A stretch of 64,000 nucleotides of DNA, taken from positions 1,612,001 through 1,676,000 of the forward strand of contig NZ_CP101824.1 in NCBI RefSeq assembly GCF_024498195.1, in the 5' to 3' direction. Shown one piece after another: positions 19,805 to 57,099 of the stretch. A program made the translations under genes and the position numbers. The DNA comes from Halovivax cerinus. Lineage in GTDB: Archaea; Halobacteriota; Halobacteria; Halobacteriales; Natrialbaceae. Position 1 is the first letter of the stretch. Each line of letters opens with the position of its first letter. The notes below the pieces were generated by a model that saw only the letters and a list, made by a program, of their open reading frames with translations, did no database searches and had not been told where the DNA came from.

Positions 19805-19879
19805 GGGCACGTAGCTCAGTCCGGATAGAGCGTCGGACTTCTAATCCGACGGTCGTGGGTTCGAATCCCATCGTGCCCG
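19805..19879 (+). tRNA. tRNA-Arg (anticodon UCU)
   Basis: A complete cloverleaf: acceptor GGGCACG/CGTGCCC, D arm GCTC...GAGC, anticodon stem TCGGA/TCCGA with loop CTTCTAA (anticodon TCT), and T arm GTGGG-TTCGAAT-CCCAT. There is no intron and no encoded CCA. The discriminator is G. The 3' end is repeated in decayed form just downstream. Confidence 0.95.
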
Positions 19880-52075: not shown

Positions 52076-52273
52076 CTAGAGCCTGTCGAGTAGCCACAGG
52101 ACGATTACCAGCGCGATGGCGAGGGTGACGATGCTGCTGAGGAACGCCGGGATGAGCGACACGATCTCACCCAGGATTTCGAGGACCAGTACGGCAGCGA
52201 CCAGCAATAGGATAACTTTCAGGAGCGTATCGACCTCGAGTGACGCTCGATCTCGTGTCATGGCACCTTTCAT
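52076..52273 (-). CDS. Small two-helix membrane protein (65 aa)
   Basis: A polar start, then VILLLVAAVLVLEILGEIVS and FLSSIVTLAIALVIVLWLLD. Two membrane helices with almost no loops, of the haloarchaeal DUF7554-like kind. ATG 52273 or 52261 (MTRDRASLEV) could start it. Function unknown. Confidence 0.68.
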   Translation of the reverse strand: MKGAMTRDRASLEVDTLLKVILLLVAAVLVLEILGEIVSLIPAFLSSIVTLAIALVIVLWLLDRL

Positions 52274-52476
52274 TCGGAGGCGAGGTCAAAAAACCACCGT
52301 TCGTCCGTCCCGGCTTCGAGGTCCAGGCCGCAGACCGGAGTGGCGACGGGTGCCGGAGGGGATCGCCATCGGCGCACCGCCTGCCGGTACGGGGTGTCGG
52401 ACGCCCGCTTCGACCTGCCCGGGTGTGCTACGCGATTACAAAACAGTCTAATGGACAGGGGTCAGAGGGACGTGTG

Positions 52477-53745
52477 ATGGCCGCGTGGCCGGCCCGTGTC
52501 GTGTGCTGTGGTGTGCTGTTCGTTGCGCTCGTGGTGGGCGCGCTCAGCGTCGGCTCCGTCGCGGTCGTCGACGCGGAGAGTGACCGTCCGATCGGAGCCC
52601 TGGCGACCGACGGGGTGACCGGTGATCGGTTCGGGTCTCGTCTCGTCGTCGCGGACCGCGACCGCGCGTCACCACGTCCGATGGGTGAGACGGTGCGCCA
52701 GGCGCAGGCGAACGAGTCTCCGCCGGAAAACGAGACGGCTGTGCCCTACCTTGCGGGCTTCGACCGCGTCACCACGCGGATCGACGTGGCGGAAAACGGG
52801 TCGGCGACTGTCACCGTCACCTATCGGTACCTTCGGTCGGACAACGAATCCGACGACGAGTGGGTCGAGGTTCGGGACGACGTGGAGGCGAATCCGGAGC
52901 GCTACCTGGACGGCGAGCGCGACCGCTGGAACGACACCGTCGCGGCCGGCCGGAACGCGACCGGTCGTGAGATGGCCACCTCGGAGTTCGCGATACGCAC
53001 GGGGGAGGGCATGACGCCGCAGCCCTACGGCGACGTGATCGTGACGTTCCGCTGGTCGTCGTTCGCGGAAGTCGAACCGAAGTGGATCGGTGACGCCGGC
53101 GACGCGCTCGTGCAGTTCGCCTTAGAGGACGACGCGACCCTCAGGATCAGCTGGCCGGAGGGGTACTCCCTCCAGGCGGTCGCACCGGAGCCGGACGAAT
53201 CGGAACGGGAGACGGTCGTCGGCTGGCACGGCGACGAGACGGACTTCCTCGAAGACGAACCGCGGGTGACGGCGTATCCCGACGGACCGCCGCCCCGTGC
53301 CTCGGATCCCCCGGAGCCCACGCGATCGGTCCTCCCGCTTCTCGTCGCTGGTGTCGGGATCGTCGTGCTCGCCACTGGTGTCCTGTGGTGGGCTCGTCGC
53401 GACGACGAGGAACCGCGAGCGCCGATGACCGACGCGGACGACGCACCGACGGTGGCTCCGCCGCCCGACCTCATGAGCAACGAAGAGCGCGTTCTCACCC
53501 TTCTCGACGCGAACGGCGGCCGAATGAAACAGCAAACGGTGATCTCCGAACTCGACTGGACGGAGGCCAAGACGAGCCAGGTCGTCGGTGACCTGCGTGA
53601 GGACGGCGATATCGAGGTGTTTCGGCTCGGTCGGGAGAACGTCCTGGCGCTGCCGGATCGGACCGCCGCTACCTCGGACGGACGCGTGGTTGCAGGAGAT
53701 ACCGACGAGTCGGGTTCCGGTGACGAGGATGCGTCCGCCTCCTGA
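52477..53745 (+). CDS. Membrane-anchored wHTH regulator (DUF7345/DUF7343-like)
   Basis: A 422-aa protein. An N-terminal signal or anchor (VVCCGVLFVALVVGALSVGS) is followed by an extracytoplasmic beta domain (FDRVTTRIDVAENGSATVTV, PYGDVIVTFRWSSFAEVEPK) with Asn-x-Thr/Ser sites. A single helix LPLLVAGVGIVVLATGVLWW (about residues 290-309) precedes a cytoplasmic winged helix (RVLTLLDANGGRMKQQTVIS, ELDWTEAKTSQVVGDLREDG). It probably senses outside signals and regulates DNA inside. ATG 52477 or GTG 52474. Confidence 0.82.
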   Translation: MAAWPARVVCCGVLFVALVVGALSVGSVAVVDAESDRPIGALATDGVTGDRFGSRLVVADRDRASPRPMGETVRQAQANESPPENETAVPYLAGFDRVTTRIDVAENGSATVTVTYRYLRSDNESDDEWVEVRDDVEANPERYLDGERDRWNDTVAAGRNATGREMATSEFAIRTGEGMTPQPYGDVIVTFRWSSFAEVEPKWIGDAGDALVQFALEDDATLRISWPEGYSLQAVAPEPDESERETVVGWHGDETDFLEDEPRVTAYPDGPPPRASDPPEPTRSVLPLLVAGVGIVVLATGVLWWARRDDEEPRAPMTDADDAPTVAPPPDLMSNEERVLTLLDANGGRMKQQTVISELDWTEAKTSQVVGDLREDGDIEVFRLGRENVLALPDRTAATSDGRVVAGDTDESGSGDEDASAS

Positions 53746-53828
53746 TCCCCTGTCAGTGGCTGCCGTTTCAGTGGCTGCCGTTGCGCGAACCACACCATTT
53801 AAACCGCTCGGACCATTTGAGTCCTGTA

Positions 53829-53903
53829 ATGACGACAGCGCCGCGTTTCGGGTTCGACACCCGCGCGAGCGACGCGGCCCGGCGACCGCGGCGGCCCCTC
53901 TAG
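53829..53903 (+). CDS. Candidate arginine-rich leader peptide upstream of argG
   Basis: A 24-residue ORF from ATG 53829 to TAG 53901: MTTAPRFGFDTRASDAARRP then RRPL. Six of 24 residues are arginine, four of them in the last eight (ARRPRRPL). It sits about 165 bp upstream of argG behind a TATA-like CATTTAAACC (53796-53805). The stop codon lies in a G+C-rich potential hairpin (GGCCC-CTCTA-GGGCC). This is the layout of a leader peptide for arginine control. That is an inference; no archaeal leader of this type is known to me. Confidence 0.5.
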   Translation: MTTAPRFGFDTRASDAARRPRRPL

Positions 53904-53937
53904 GGCCACACTTACTCTCACTTCACGGTATCCGGTT

Positions 53938-53958
53938 GATGCTATTTTCCCTAGCATC
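53938..53958 (+). promoter_or_regulatory. Hairpin between leader ORF and argG
   Basis: GATGCTA-TTTTCCC-TAGCATC is a perfect 7-bp stem with a T-rich loop, 35 bp after the leader stop. It could be an attenuator or anti-terminator part, or an operator. A weaker inverted repeat TACGG...CCGTA follows at 53981-53998. Confidence 0.35.
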
Positions 53959-54027
53959 GCTCGCACATTCTTCATTAGAATACGGTTAGCATGCCGTACG
54001 AACTTTATTTTCTAAATCTAAAGCGGT

Positions 54028-54035
54028 GTATTTAT
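54028..54035 (+). promoter_or_regulatory. TATA-like element upstream of argG
   Basis: GTATTTAT lies about 35 bp before the ATG at 54066. It argues against translation from the upstream in-frame ATG at 53991, and it could be a second promoter after the leader. Confidence 0.4.
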
Positions 54036-54065: not shown

Positions 54066-55373
54066 ATGACACGCGTTGCACTCGCGTTCTCGGGCGGACT
54101 GGACACGACGGTTTGCGTGCCGCTGCTCGAGGAGGAGTACGGATACGACGACGTTCTCGGCGTCACGGTCGACGTCGGGCAACCCGAATCGGAGTTCGAG
54201 GAGGCCGCGGAGACCGCCGACGCACTCGGTCTGGAGCACGTCGTGGTCGACGCGAAAGCGGCGTTCGCCGACCTTTGTCTCGAAGGCGTTCGTGCGAACG
54301 CGACCTACCAGGGCTACCCGCTCGGGACGGCGCTCGCACGTCCAGTGATCGCCGAGGCCATCCTCGAGGTCGCCGAGGAACACGACTGTACGGGGCTGGC
54401 CCACGGCTGCACTGGGAAAGGAAACGACCAGCTCCGATTCGAGGCCGTCTGGCGCGACTCGGACATGGAGGTCATCGCGCCCGTGCGCGAACTCGGACTC
54501 ACGCGCGAGTGGGAACAGGAGTACGCGGCCGAGAAGGACCTGCCCGTCGAGGGTGGCAACGAGGGGGACTGGTCGATCGACACCAACCTCTGGAGTCGCT
54601 CCGTCGAGGGCAAGGAACTCGAGGACCCGAGCTACGTCCCCGGTGAGGAGATCTACGAGTGGACCGACGCACCGTCGGGCGAGACGGCCGAGATCGAGAT
54701 CGAATTCGAGGATGGCTCCCCCGTCGCCGTCGATGGGGAGGCCTACGATCCCGTCTCCCTCGTCGAGCACCTCAACGAGGTCGCCGGCGCCTTCGGCGTC
54801 GGCCGTACGGACACGATGGAAGACCGCATGCTCGGCCTGAAGGTGCGCGAGAACTACGAGCACCCGGCCGCGACGACGCTGCTGGCCGCCCACGGGGCGC
54901 TCGAAGCGCTCGTCCTCACGCAGGAAGAGCGCCAGTTCAAGGACACGATCGACGCGAAGTGGGCCGAGAAAGCCTACGAGGGTCTGATCGACGCGCCGCT
55001 CGTCGGCGCGCTCGACGCCTTCGTCGCCGAGACCCAGTCGCGCGTGACCGGAACCGTAACGATCCGCTTCGAAGGCGGCCAGGCGCGCGCCGTCGGCCGC
55101 GACAGCGCCTACGCCGCTTACTCGGCCGAGCACGCCTCCTTCGACACTGAAGCGGTGGGCAAGATCGAGCAGTCCGACGCCACCGGCGTCGCGAAGTACC
55201 ACGGCTTCCAGCGCCGCCTCGCGAACGAGTCGATCGCCGCCGTCGAGGCGGCTGAGGAGGCGAACGGGACCGAATCGCCCACGCTCGCAACGGATGGTGG
55301 GGCCACCGATGGGACGACGACTAATGGCGGCGCGACTGCGGACAGTTCCGCCGATAGCACACCTGAGGAGTGA
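54066..55373 (+). CDS. argG: Argininosuccinate synthase
   Basis: Joins citrulline and aspartate with ATP (435 aa). P-loop-like VALAFSGGLDTTVCV is at the very start, then VTVDVGQPESEFEE, AHGCTGKGNDQLRFE, VEGGNEGDWSIDTNLWSR and the tail domain. The last 35 residues are a Gly/Ala/Thr/Asp-rich extension beyond the family end. ATG 54066 is the family start. argH follows after 2 bp. Confidence 0.95.
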   Translation: MTRVALAFSGGLDTTVCVPLLEEEYGYDDVLGVTVDVGQPESEFEEAAETADALGLEHVVVDAKAAFADLCLEGVRANATYQGYPLGTALARPVIAEAILEVAEEHDCTGLAHGCTGKGNDQLRFEAVWRDSDMEVIAPVRELGLTREWEQEYAAEKDLPVEGGNEGDWSIDTNLWSRSVEGKELEDPSYVPGEEIYEWTDAPSGETAEIEIEFEDGSPVAVDGEAYDPVSLVEHLNEVAGAFGVGRTDTMEDRMLGLKVRENYEHPAATTLLAAHGALEALVLTQEERQFKDTIDAKWAEKAYEGLIDAPLVGALDAFVAETQSRVTGTVTIRFEGGQARAVGRDSAYAAYSAEHASFDTEAVGKIEQSDATGVAKYHGFQRRLANESIAAVEAAEEANGTESPTLATDGGATDGTTTNGGATADSSADSTPEE

Positions 55374-55375
55374 GC

Positions 55376-56866
55376 ATGACCGGGTCCGACGCGACGAACG
55401 GGAAAGTCGACGCCGACGAGAGCGTCGTTCGCCGCGATCGTTTCAGCGGCGGCCCCGCCCGCGAGTTCCTCTCGTCGCTCGAAGCCGACGCTCGTATCTT
55501 TGCGGCCGACATCGCGGTCGATCGCGCCCACGTCGTGATGCTCGCCGAGTGCGACATCGTCGACGACGAGACGGCCGGATCCATCCTCGCTGCCCTCGAG
55601 GCGATCGAAGGCGCGGGTCACGACGCACTGCCCGACGGCGAGGACGTACACGAGGCCATCGAGACGGCGGTCGTCGACCACGTCGGACCCGACGGCGGGC
55701 GGATGCATACCGCACGCTCGCGCAACGACGAGGTCGCGACCTGCATTCGCTACCGTTTCCGCGAGGACGTCCTCGACGCGGTCGAGGTGACGCTCGCCCT
55801 GCGCGAGGCGCTCGCCGGGATCGCCGAGGAACACGCGGAGACGATCATGCCGGGCTACACGCACCTCCAGCCAGCCCAGCCGACGACCGTCGCCCAGTGG
55901 GCCCTGTCCTACGAGTCGACGGTCGCGCGCGATACGGCTCGCCTCTTCGAGACCCTCGGGCGGCTGGACGCCTCGCCGCTCGGCGCGGCCGCGTTCGCCG
56001 GCACGCCGTTCGAGATCGACCGCGAACGCACCGCCGAGTTGCTCGGCTTCTCGTCCGTTCTTACCAACGCGACGGACGCGGTCGCGAGCCGCGACGTGCT
56101 CCTCGAGACGACACAGGCCCTTTCGACGCTCGCGACGACGCTGTCGGGACTCGCCGAGGACCTGATCGTCTTCGCGAACCGCGGCTTCGTCGACCTCGAC
56201 GACGACTACGCCTCGACCTCCTCGATCATGCCTCAGAAGGTGAATCCGGACACCCTCGAACTCGTCCGCGCGGTCGCGGGCGACGCGGCGGCGGGCGTCC
56301 AGGGCCTCACGACGACGCTCAAGGGCCTCCCGCGCGCGTACAACCGCGATCTGCAGCGCGCGACGCCGCACGTCTGGGGGACCGTCGATGCCGTCACGGA
56401 GGCGACCGAGGTAGCCGCCGGCGCGGCCGCGACCGCGGAGTGGAACGAGGAATCGCTCTTCGGGGCGGCCGGAGAGGGCTTCTCGACGGCGACGGGCGTC
56501 GCTGACCTGCTCGCAATGGGCGGCGTTCCGTTCCGCACGGCCCACGAGATCGTCGCGGAGGCGGCGACTGCGGCCGAGGCGACCGACGATTCGATCCGCG
56601 AGGCGCTCGCGGCGACTGCCGAGGAACACCTCGACGTTCCGCTCGACACGTTCGTCGACCCCACCGCGCTAGCCGATGCGCTCGATCCCGCCGCGAGCGT
56701 CGCGAGTCGCGACTCGGCGGGCGGGCCGGCTCCGGAGGCGGTCCGCGACCAGCTCGCGGCCGTCACCACGTCGATCGATGCCGATCGTGAGACGTACGCT
56801 GACCACATCGGCGTCCTGCAGGCCGCGGACGAGCGCCGTCTGGAGGTGGTCTCGAGCTATGTTTGA
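55376..56866 (+). CDS. argH: Argininosuccinate lyase
   Basis: Splits argininosuccinate to arginine and fumarate (496 aa). Visible: DEDVHEAIE-type GEDVHEAIET, HTARSRNDEVATCIRYRFRE, MPGYTHLQPAQPTTVAQWAL and signature SSIMPQKVNPDTLELVRAV. ATG 55376 is two bases after the argG stop; GTG 55370 is an alternative. A candidate second leader ORF starts inside its 3' end. Confidence 0.95.
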   Translation: MTGSDATNGKVDADESVVRRDRFSGGPAREFLSSLEADARIFAADIAVDRAHVVMLAECDIVDDETAGSILAALEAIEGAGHDALPDGEDVHEAIETAVVDHVGPDGGRMHTARSRNDEVATCIRYRFREDVLDAVEVTLALREALAGIAEEHAETIMPGYTHLQPAQPTTVAQWALSYESTVARDTARLFETLGRLDASPLGAAAFAGTPFEIDRERTAELLGFSSVLTNATDAVASRDVLLETTQALSTLATTLSGLAEDLIVFANRGFVDLDDDYASTSSIMPQKVNPDTLELVRAVAGDAAAGVQGLTTTLKGLPRAYNRDLQRATPHVWGTVDAVTEATEVAAGAAATAEWNEESLFGAAGEGFSTATGVADLLAMGGVPFRTAHEIVAEAATAAEATDDSIREALAATAEEHLDVPLDTFVDPTALADALDPAASVASRDSAGGPAPEAVRDQLAAVTTSIDADRETYADHIGVLQAADERRLEVVSSYV

Positions 56867-56978
56867 GACGGCGACGGTGGCGCTCAGCGCATCGGGCTCG
56901 GTGCGCGCGGATCGCTCGATCGGGCCGCGACCGCGACGGCCGCGGTCCCCGCCAGGGGACACTATTCTATCGAACTGA
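56859..56978 (+). CDS. Candidate second leader ORF upstream of lysW
   Basis: A 39-codon ORF from ATG 56859, overlapping the argH end, includes SVRADRSIGPRPRRPRSPPG. Its RPRRP stretch and surrounding DNA (CGACCGCGACGGCC, then CCAGGGGACACT) match the end of the argG leader (CGACCGCGGCGGCC, then CTAGGGCCACACT) in the same frame. Start and stop differ from the first leader, so this may instead be a non-coding copy of the same element. Confidence 0.4.
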   Translation: MFETATVALSASGSVRADRSIGPRPRRPRSPPGDTILSN

Positions 56979-57014
56979 CATTCGACACGAAATCGCGGTA
57001 TATGGGGCTCGAAA

Positions 57015-57035
57015 ACACTGTTAGTGTACAGTACA
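57015..57035. promoter_or_regulatory. Overlapping inverted repeats in the lysW promoter
   Basis: ACACT-GTT-AGTGT (57015-57027) overlaps TGTAC-A-GTACA (57025-57035). They lie in the AT-rich region just ahead of a TATA-like run and 65-85 bp before lysW. A good candidate operator for an arginine- or amino-acid-responsive regulator. Confidence 0.45.
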
Positions 57036-57063
57036 AATATATAATTTATCAGATAGGTTCGAC

Positions 57064-57073
57064 GAATTTATGT
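57064..57073 (+). promoter_or_regulatory. TATA box for the lysW operon
   Basis: GAATTTATGT lies about 30 bp before the ATG at 57100. A second AT-rich stretch ATATATAATTTATC is at 57038-57050. Confidence 0.45.
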
Positions 57074-57099
57074 ACCCGTAGCGCCGATGTGGGAGTACC

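Follow-up and report, generated by a model that had tools for sequence, protein, structure and literature searches.

The argG locus of Halovivax cerinus

The window (the whole stretch of 64,000 nucleotides that was analysed) contains an arginine cluster, as judged from the gene order argG, argH, argW (encoding a LysW-type carrier), argX and argC. A short ORF of 24 codons (product MTTAPRFGFDTRASDAARRPRRPL, followed by the stop; C-terminal end RRPRRPL) ends 162 nt before the start of argG and contains six Arg codons, the last eight residues holding four. The TTTAAA box ahead of it begins 31 nt before the ATG, a spacing which implies a leaderless start of the leader transcript. The ORF as described in the sequence-only reading (24 codons, six Arg codons, a TATA-like box, a terminal G+C-rich hairpin and argG downstream) was re-read in the sequence and confirmed. 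A Pfam search of the leader peptide gave no match. The features of the locus are as follows.

53798..53803, + strand: P1, TATA-like box TTTAAA of the leader transcript (sequence)
53829..53903, + strand: Arg leader peptide ORF, MTTAPRFGFDTRASDAARRPRRPL and stop; a homologous sORF precedes argG in 110/110 loci read
53833..53876, + strand: stem A, RNA hairpin predicted within the N-terminal part of the ORF (from the predicted fold)
53880..53894, + strand: Arg-codon run CGG CGA CCG CGG CGG (RRPRR), proposed sensor
53893..53907, + strand: stem B, hairpin GGCCC-ctcta-GGGCC (arms co-vary among leaders)
53908..53930, + strand: G-poor, pyrimidine-rich single-stranded tail after stem B
53938..53958, + strand: inverted repeat GATGCTA-ttttccc-TAGCATC (perfect 7-bp; kept in 3/5 genus genomes read)
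53983..54035, + strand: P2, likely second leaderless argG promoter, with CGGTTAG box (53983-53989) and TATA-like TTTAT (54031-54035) (consensus inspection)
54066..55373, + strand: argG, argininosuccinate synthase (NF010392, 1.2e-192; TIGR00032, 8e-131)

An origin of the leader ORF as the decayed 5′ end of another gene (GFDTRA resembles the N-termini of PLP enzymes) was rejected, since relatives carry a conserved leader and no gene fragment, and no second copy was found in the organism's own genome. The gene upstream of the leader (52240-53745, + strand) carries DUF7345 and DUF7343 domains and, by appearance, encodes a membrane protein with a winged-helix-like C-terminus; a similar gene lies 5′ of the leader in the other genomes of the genus.

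Distribution of the leader among haloarchaea

A DNA search of relatives gave matches to the region upstream of argG in 4/4 same-genus genomes, each with an sORF that has an Arg-rich tail and a stop within a G+C hairpin. The regions upstream of argG were read at 110 loci, 80 of these named, and the same layout was present in 110/110, giving 98 distinct leaders from Natrialbaceae to Haloferax, Halogeometricum, Haloprofundus, Halorussus, Halorientalis, Natronomonas, Halobacterium and others; examples, each followed by a stop, are MATRSTLATFAPLRAAAVRRRRPAL (Haloferax), MTRTRRNGSRAVASGGSVRLLRLRRRPGR (Halorientalis) and MSGSADRSVPLFATAGAVTPRRPRRPGL (Natronococcus group). The distinct leaders were 18-53 aa in length (mean 30, n = 98) and started with ATG in 96/98 cases, and the TATA-like box began 31-33 nt 5′ of the start codon in 83/98, a spacing that, on sequence grounds, is the geometry expected of leaderless transcripts.

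Specificity was assessed with a strict automatic test combining TATA spacing, an ATG or GTG start, a minimum of 3 Arg among the final 12 residues and a G+C hairpin at the stop. It was passed by 68/80 named argG loci; the remaining 12 were each off in one criterion, and the leader was recognisable by eye. The test was passed by 0/30 regions upstream of leuA, 0/27 of trpC and 0/25 of hisG (together 0/82), by 0/312 windows farther upstream and by 0/78 reverse complements, and comparable Leu/Ile/Val, Trp or His leaders, sought before leuA, trpC or hisG, were not found. The arrangement is far beyond chance.

A covariance model of 74 positions was built from 49 diverse argG leaders. It gave a single strong hit in the organism's own genome (E 4e-6; next 0.1). 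Within the order it had hits in 188/243 genomes, representing 65/77 genera, and rarely more than one hit per genome. As the model was trained on argG leaders of the same class, this hit rate is not independent of them, but it is informative that the hits are confined to a single locus in each genome. Where both the hit and argG were listed, the hit had the same orientation as argG and preceded it by 50-205 nt in 105/105 genomes. Genomes missed by the model mostly carried variant leaders on inspection by eye. The leader goes well beyond the single genome in which it was first noticed, being present in nearly all haloarchaea examined. The model misses a variant in one genus (g19, of a single family; L180-L184), whose leader has greater length, additional hairpins and several blocks of Arg. 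Deep-branching relatives, whose ArgG is 57-65% identical, are without the leader, and none was detected in about 100 genomes of the phylum outside the class, a result to be read with caution as the model is G+C-rich. At the gathering score, Rfam searches of the window and of six leader loci gave no match at the leader, and with E allowed up to 1 the leader region still had none; the leader matches no T-box, riboswitch or other described RNA family.

Arginine codons, RNA elements and promoters

Reading frames and stems were counted in 49 representatives of the leader. Ahead of stem B, the ORF frame held a stop in 0/49 representatives, whereas stops interrupted the two alternative frames in 36 and 7. 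The ten codons leading up to stem B included 3 or more Arg in 46/49 representatives when read in the ORF frame, and in 19 and 2 when read in the alternative ones. Arg made up 40% of the last 12 leader residues. Arg codons of the tail were CGA 302, CGG 143, CGT 32, CGC 9 and AGG 1; those of the head of the same ORFs were CGC 62, CGT 34, CGG 26 and CGA 16; and those of argG bodies were CGC 1204, CGT 222, CGG 137 and CGA 46. CGA, the rarest CGN codon of argG, is therefore the commonest in the tail (62% of Arg codons vs 2.8% in argG), and CGA and CGG together account for 91% of tail Arg codons vs 11% in argG bodies. A nucleotide motif could contribute to this bias. In 25 close pairs, substitutions at the first, second and third codon positions numbered 14, 27 and 46 for the tail as against 86, 84 and 87 for the head, so that the third-position excess is confined to the tail, which is held as amino acid whereas the head is not. 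The frame shared with the start, the third-position excess and the CGA bias show the tail to be selected as Arg codons and are three independent indications that it is read as protein; the N-terminal part is constrained as an RNA hairpin and not as a peptide. The sequence-only reading had called for an alignment of argG upstream regions across haloarchaea; in that comparison the ORF proved to be conserved class-wide with Arg codons changing synonymously. An Arg-codon leader peptide is well supported, and we regard it as highly probable. Codons for the end product lie upstream of the biosynthetic gene (an Arg tail, with argG following in 105/105 checkable genomes), and both the reading frame and the sensing codons are conserved in relatives.

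Natronorubrum leaders (L045, L052, L053, L058, L060 and L061) carry a long Arg run, up to RRRRRRRR. In this genus a frame change shifts the stop to about 20 codons past stem B while the Arg run is kept, and a stop placed in stem B is thus not essential.

Stem A is weak in Halovivax cerinus and strong in most species, and its arms gave z = -6.0 for cognate vs non-cognate duplexes (49 representatives). Stem B has its arms at 53893-53897 (GGCCC) and 53903-53907 (GGGCC) with the loop ctcta, and the stop TAG (53901-53903) occupies the loop and the first base of the 3′ arm. Across leaders, stem B comprised 4-8 G+C-rich pairs with a loop of 3-8, covaried (GGGCC/GGCCC, GGCCC/GGGCC, GGGGC/GCCCC and GGGGTC/GACCCC) and contained the stop in 88/98 leaders. 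RNAalifold on a MAFFT alignment returned no structure, which is attributed to the varying loop lengths, and the columns of stem B were therefore set by hand from pair counts. The 22 nt 3′ of stem B were 42% C, 29% T, 22% A and 8% G (49 representatives). A hairpin with a U-run, as in bacterial terminators, was not found after the leader ORF, stem B being without a U-run. A stretch of T4-5, mostly followed by C, was present in 23/49 leaders vs 12 expected, often 52-58 nt past stem B, and its sequence resembles the intergenic termination motif of Haloferax volcanii (PMC7237163).

A four-segment attenuator of the classical kind, with an antiterminator shared across the class, was considered and rejected: windowed cognate/non-cognate duplex tests gave weak signals only, and no competing antiterminator conserved across the class was found in them. 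Pairing of the Arg run with downstream sequence showed a weak excess (t -2.6 and -2.9) and was strong only in some lineages. The inverted repeat at 53938-53958 contains ATTTTC, resembling the T-stretch termination motif of H. volcanii, and is a candidate hairpin, terminator or operator. Its 3′ arm (GCATCGCTCGC) can pair with the leader ORF (GCGAGCGACGC) in the three genomes carrying the repeat, a pairing that is lineage-specific to Halovivax.

Halovivax cerinus and much of Natrialbaceae and Haloferacaceae have a further TATA-like box some 30-35 nt ahead of argG. The layout of a GTTAG-like box, an AT-rich element and a TATA-like box is common to argG and argW (about 57016-57075). The proximal TATA-like box and the GTTAG box shared with argW make a separate leaderless promoter of argG probable, and the common layout suggests a common transcription regulator of arginine genes. 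In Halovivax cerinus, the likely P2 lies after the leader and could bypass leader control. The second promoter is missing in many loci of other families, e.g. Halorussus, Halorientalis and Natronomonas, although some other loci of family f17 do have it; where it is missing, the leader would sit on the only argG transcript.

A proposed arginine sensor and alternative explanations

The best explanation, which we hold to be reasonably probable from the sequence comparisons, is that a leaderless leader peptide read by the ribosome senses charged tRNA-Arg and exerts attenuation-like control over argG. The leader, its reading frame, the selection of Arg codons, stems A and B and the link to argG are supported by the sequences; we infer that the leader is translated, that the ribosome stalls, which way the control runs and that termination is the step it acts on. 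The transcript would begin at the sORF ATG, and a ribosome would load on the nascent 5′ end and translate the short peptide, the body of which would fold as stem A while the run of rare Arg codons at its end abuts stem B. With ample charged tRNA-Arg, the ribosome would clear the run and be released at the stop in the stem B loop, after which stem B would form behind the polymerase with the G-poor tail exposed, and transcription of the leader would end, or the RNA would be cut, shortly 3′ of stem B. When charged tRNA-Arg is scarce, the ribosome would be held on the Arg run and, at most stall positions, would cover stem B, which would be kept open so that RNA polymerase continues into argG; such direct occlusion is the simplest model. 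In Natrialbaceae and Haloferacaceae, the TATA-driven second promoter would supply a basal or separately regulated argG mRNA. As a conjecture, stem A, lying near a leaderless start, may let only the first ribosome, working during transcription, translate the leader; the archaeal termination nuclease aCPSF1/FttA might load on the G-poor tail.

Median distances to stem B are 23 nt for the first Arg codon and 5 nt for the last. With a ribosome modelled on the last Arg codon, the probability of stem B fell from 0.90 to 0.00, and with one on the stop to 0.04; with one on the first Arg codon it was 0.85, so that stem B was not abolished. In the model, two points speak against occlusion, namely that a stall on the first Arg would leave stem B free and that a ribosome paused at the stop would also block stem B until release. 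Haloarchaeal ribosomes and RNA polymerase interact with each other (PMC8576121), a coding-region hairpin terminated 59% of the transcripts of one H. volcanii reporter (PMC7237163), and the form of a hairpin plus U-run is not required of archaeal terminators (PMC7237163, PMC8716108). The sequence-only reading had suggested that an Arg-rich leader read by the ribosome controls argG through downstream structure or termination, which is supported in part. Class-wide conservation, synonymous Arg changes and rare-codon selection favour its core, a ribosome-read Arg-rich leader that would control argG; for the structure or termination step, neither a hairpin plus U-run nor a class-wide antiterminator was found.

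The same Arg-codon sensor might instead act on the stability or processing of the leader mRNA or on the translation of argG, an output we think rather unlikely. The missing classical terminator after stem B favours it, as do the lineages seemingly without a second promoter, where a single transcript would carry the leader and, some 100 nt further on, argG, the interval being occupied by a further hairpin and a CA-rich start region; in the model, however, pairing of the argG start region was unchanged by the ribosome (0.41 free; 0.40-0.42 in other states), and an argG mRNA from a proximal promoter would be leaderless and beyond such control. Improbable to a greater degree is a nascent-peptide arrest sensor of free arginine, akin to the eukaryotic arginine attenuator peptide, in which abundant arginine would cause the Arg/Pro tail in the exit tunnel to arrest translation at the stop or close to it. 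Eukaryotic arginine-sensing uORFs are known (PMC8370653, Toxoplasma) and most leaders have an Arg/Pro-rich C-terminus beside the stop, but only the Arg/Pro content is kept, the order and length of the tail vary (RRPRRPGL, RRRRPAL, RPRPGL, RRRRRRRRAFEP), the peptide body is unconstrained, and the rare-codon bias points to tRNA supply and not to peptide sequence.

That the locus is a conserved non-coding RNA or DNA element (a transcript end or insulator), with Arg codons as a by-product of a CGACGACCG motif and translation irrelevant, would agree with the conservation of stems A and B as RNA and with an N-terminal part free of amino-acid constraint. It is nevertheless very improbable, because the run is in frame with the start over ORFs of 18-53 codons without an in-frame stop, the TATA-to-ATG spacing is fixed and changes in the tail are concentrated at third positions. 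The separate promoter and the short, self-contained unit would suit a functional basic microprotein or a small RNA acting in trans; its constant place beside argG (105/105), the little that is conserved outside the Arg tail and the lack of a family match make this scarcely credible.

With the bacterial trp, his, leu and ilv attenuators, the haloarchaeal leader shares a short ORF rich in end-product codons directly 5′ of the biosynthetic gene and a fixed order of codon run, stop and hairpins. It differs from them in the archaeal host, the leaderless start (by geometry), the second promoter in some families, the rare-codon run that abuts a small hairpin whose loop holds the stop, and the lack of a U-run terminator and of a clear antiterminator. 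In pyrBI-type attenuators of E. coli, a ribosome close behind RNA polymerase can block the downstream hairpin with no separate antiterminator. Blocking of a hairpin by the ribosome itself is common to that type and the proposed argG leader model; the signal is nucleotide supply acting on RNA polymerase in pyrBI, whereas for argG it would be charged tRNA-Arg acting on the ribosome. The fungal arginine attenuator peptide (arg-2/CPA1) and eukaryotic arginine uORFs likewise tune an arginine gene by stalling on an upstream peptide, as proposed for the leader, but they act on translation via a conserved peptide that senses free arginine, while the leader keeps only Arg/Pro codons; beyond its Arg content no conserved peptide was found, the body being unconstrained and the tail varying in order and length. 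The short hairpin and T-stretch plus C motifs of H. volcanii terminators (PMC7237163) occur in leaders too, although the T-stretch is found in only about half of leaders; both are putative terminator elements here.

No archaeal amino-acid leader-peptide attenuator was found in the literature covered, which excluded subscription journals, preprints and supplements, and publications on transcription-translation coupling describe the physical link and no such attenuator in archaea. The kind of sensor is known in bacteria and, as far as found, the archaeal case is apparently new. There is about an even chance that this is the first archaeal ribosome-mediated amino-acid attenuation, present in nearly all haloarchaea, in which a rare-Arg run, a hairpin with the stop in its loop and a G-poor tail would replace terminator and antiterminator. 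The regulatory use of transcription-translation coupling by archaea is an open question, which the argG leader makes directly testable: it is short, tied to one gene, present in the genetically tractable Haloferax and makes sharp predictions, and it offers a natural reporter of tRNA-Arg charging.

Elsewhere in the window, a tRNA-Arg gene (anticodon TCT) was located at 19805-19879 (+ strand). A second Arg/Pro-rich sORF (MFETATVALSASGSVRADRSIGPRPRRPRSPPGDTILSN; 56860-56979, + strand), the start of which spans the argH stop codon, enters a GTCCCC-gcca-GGGGAC hairpin (56945-56960) ahead of argW. Both the hairpin and the overlap of the start with the argH stop are found in many haloarchaea; as the Arg content varies, this may be a coupled sORF at the end of the argGH transcript.
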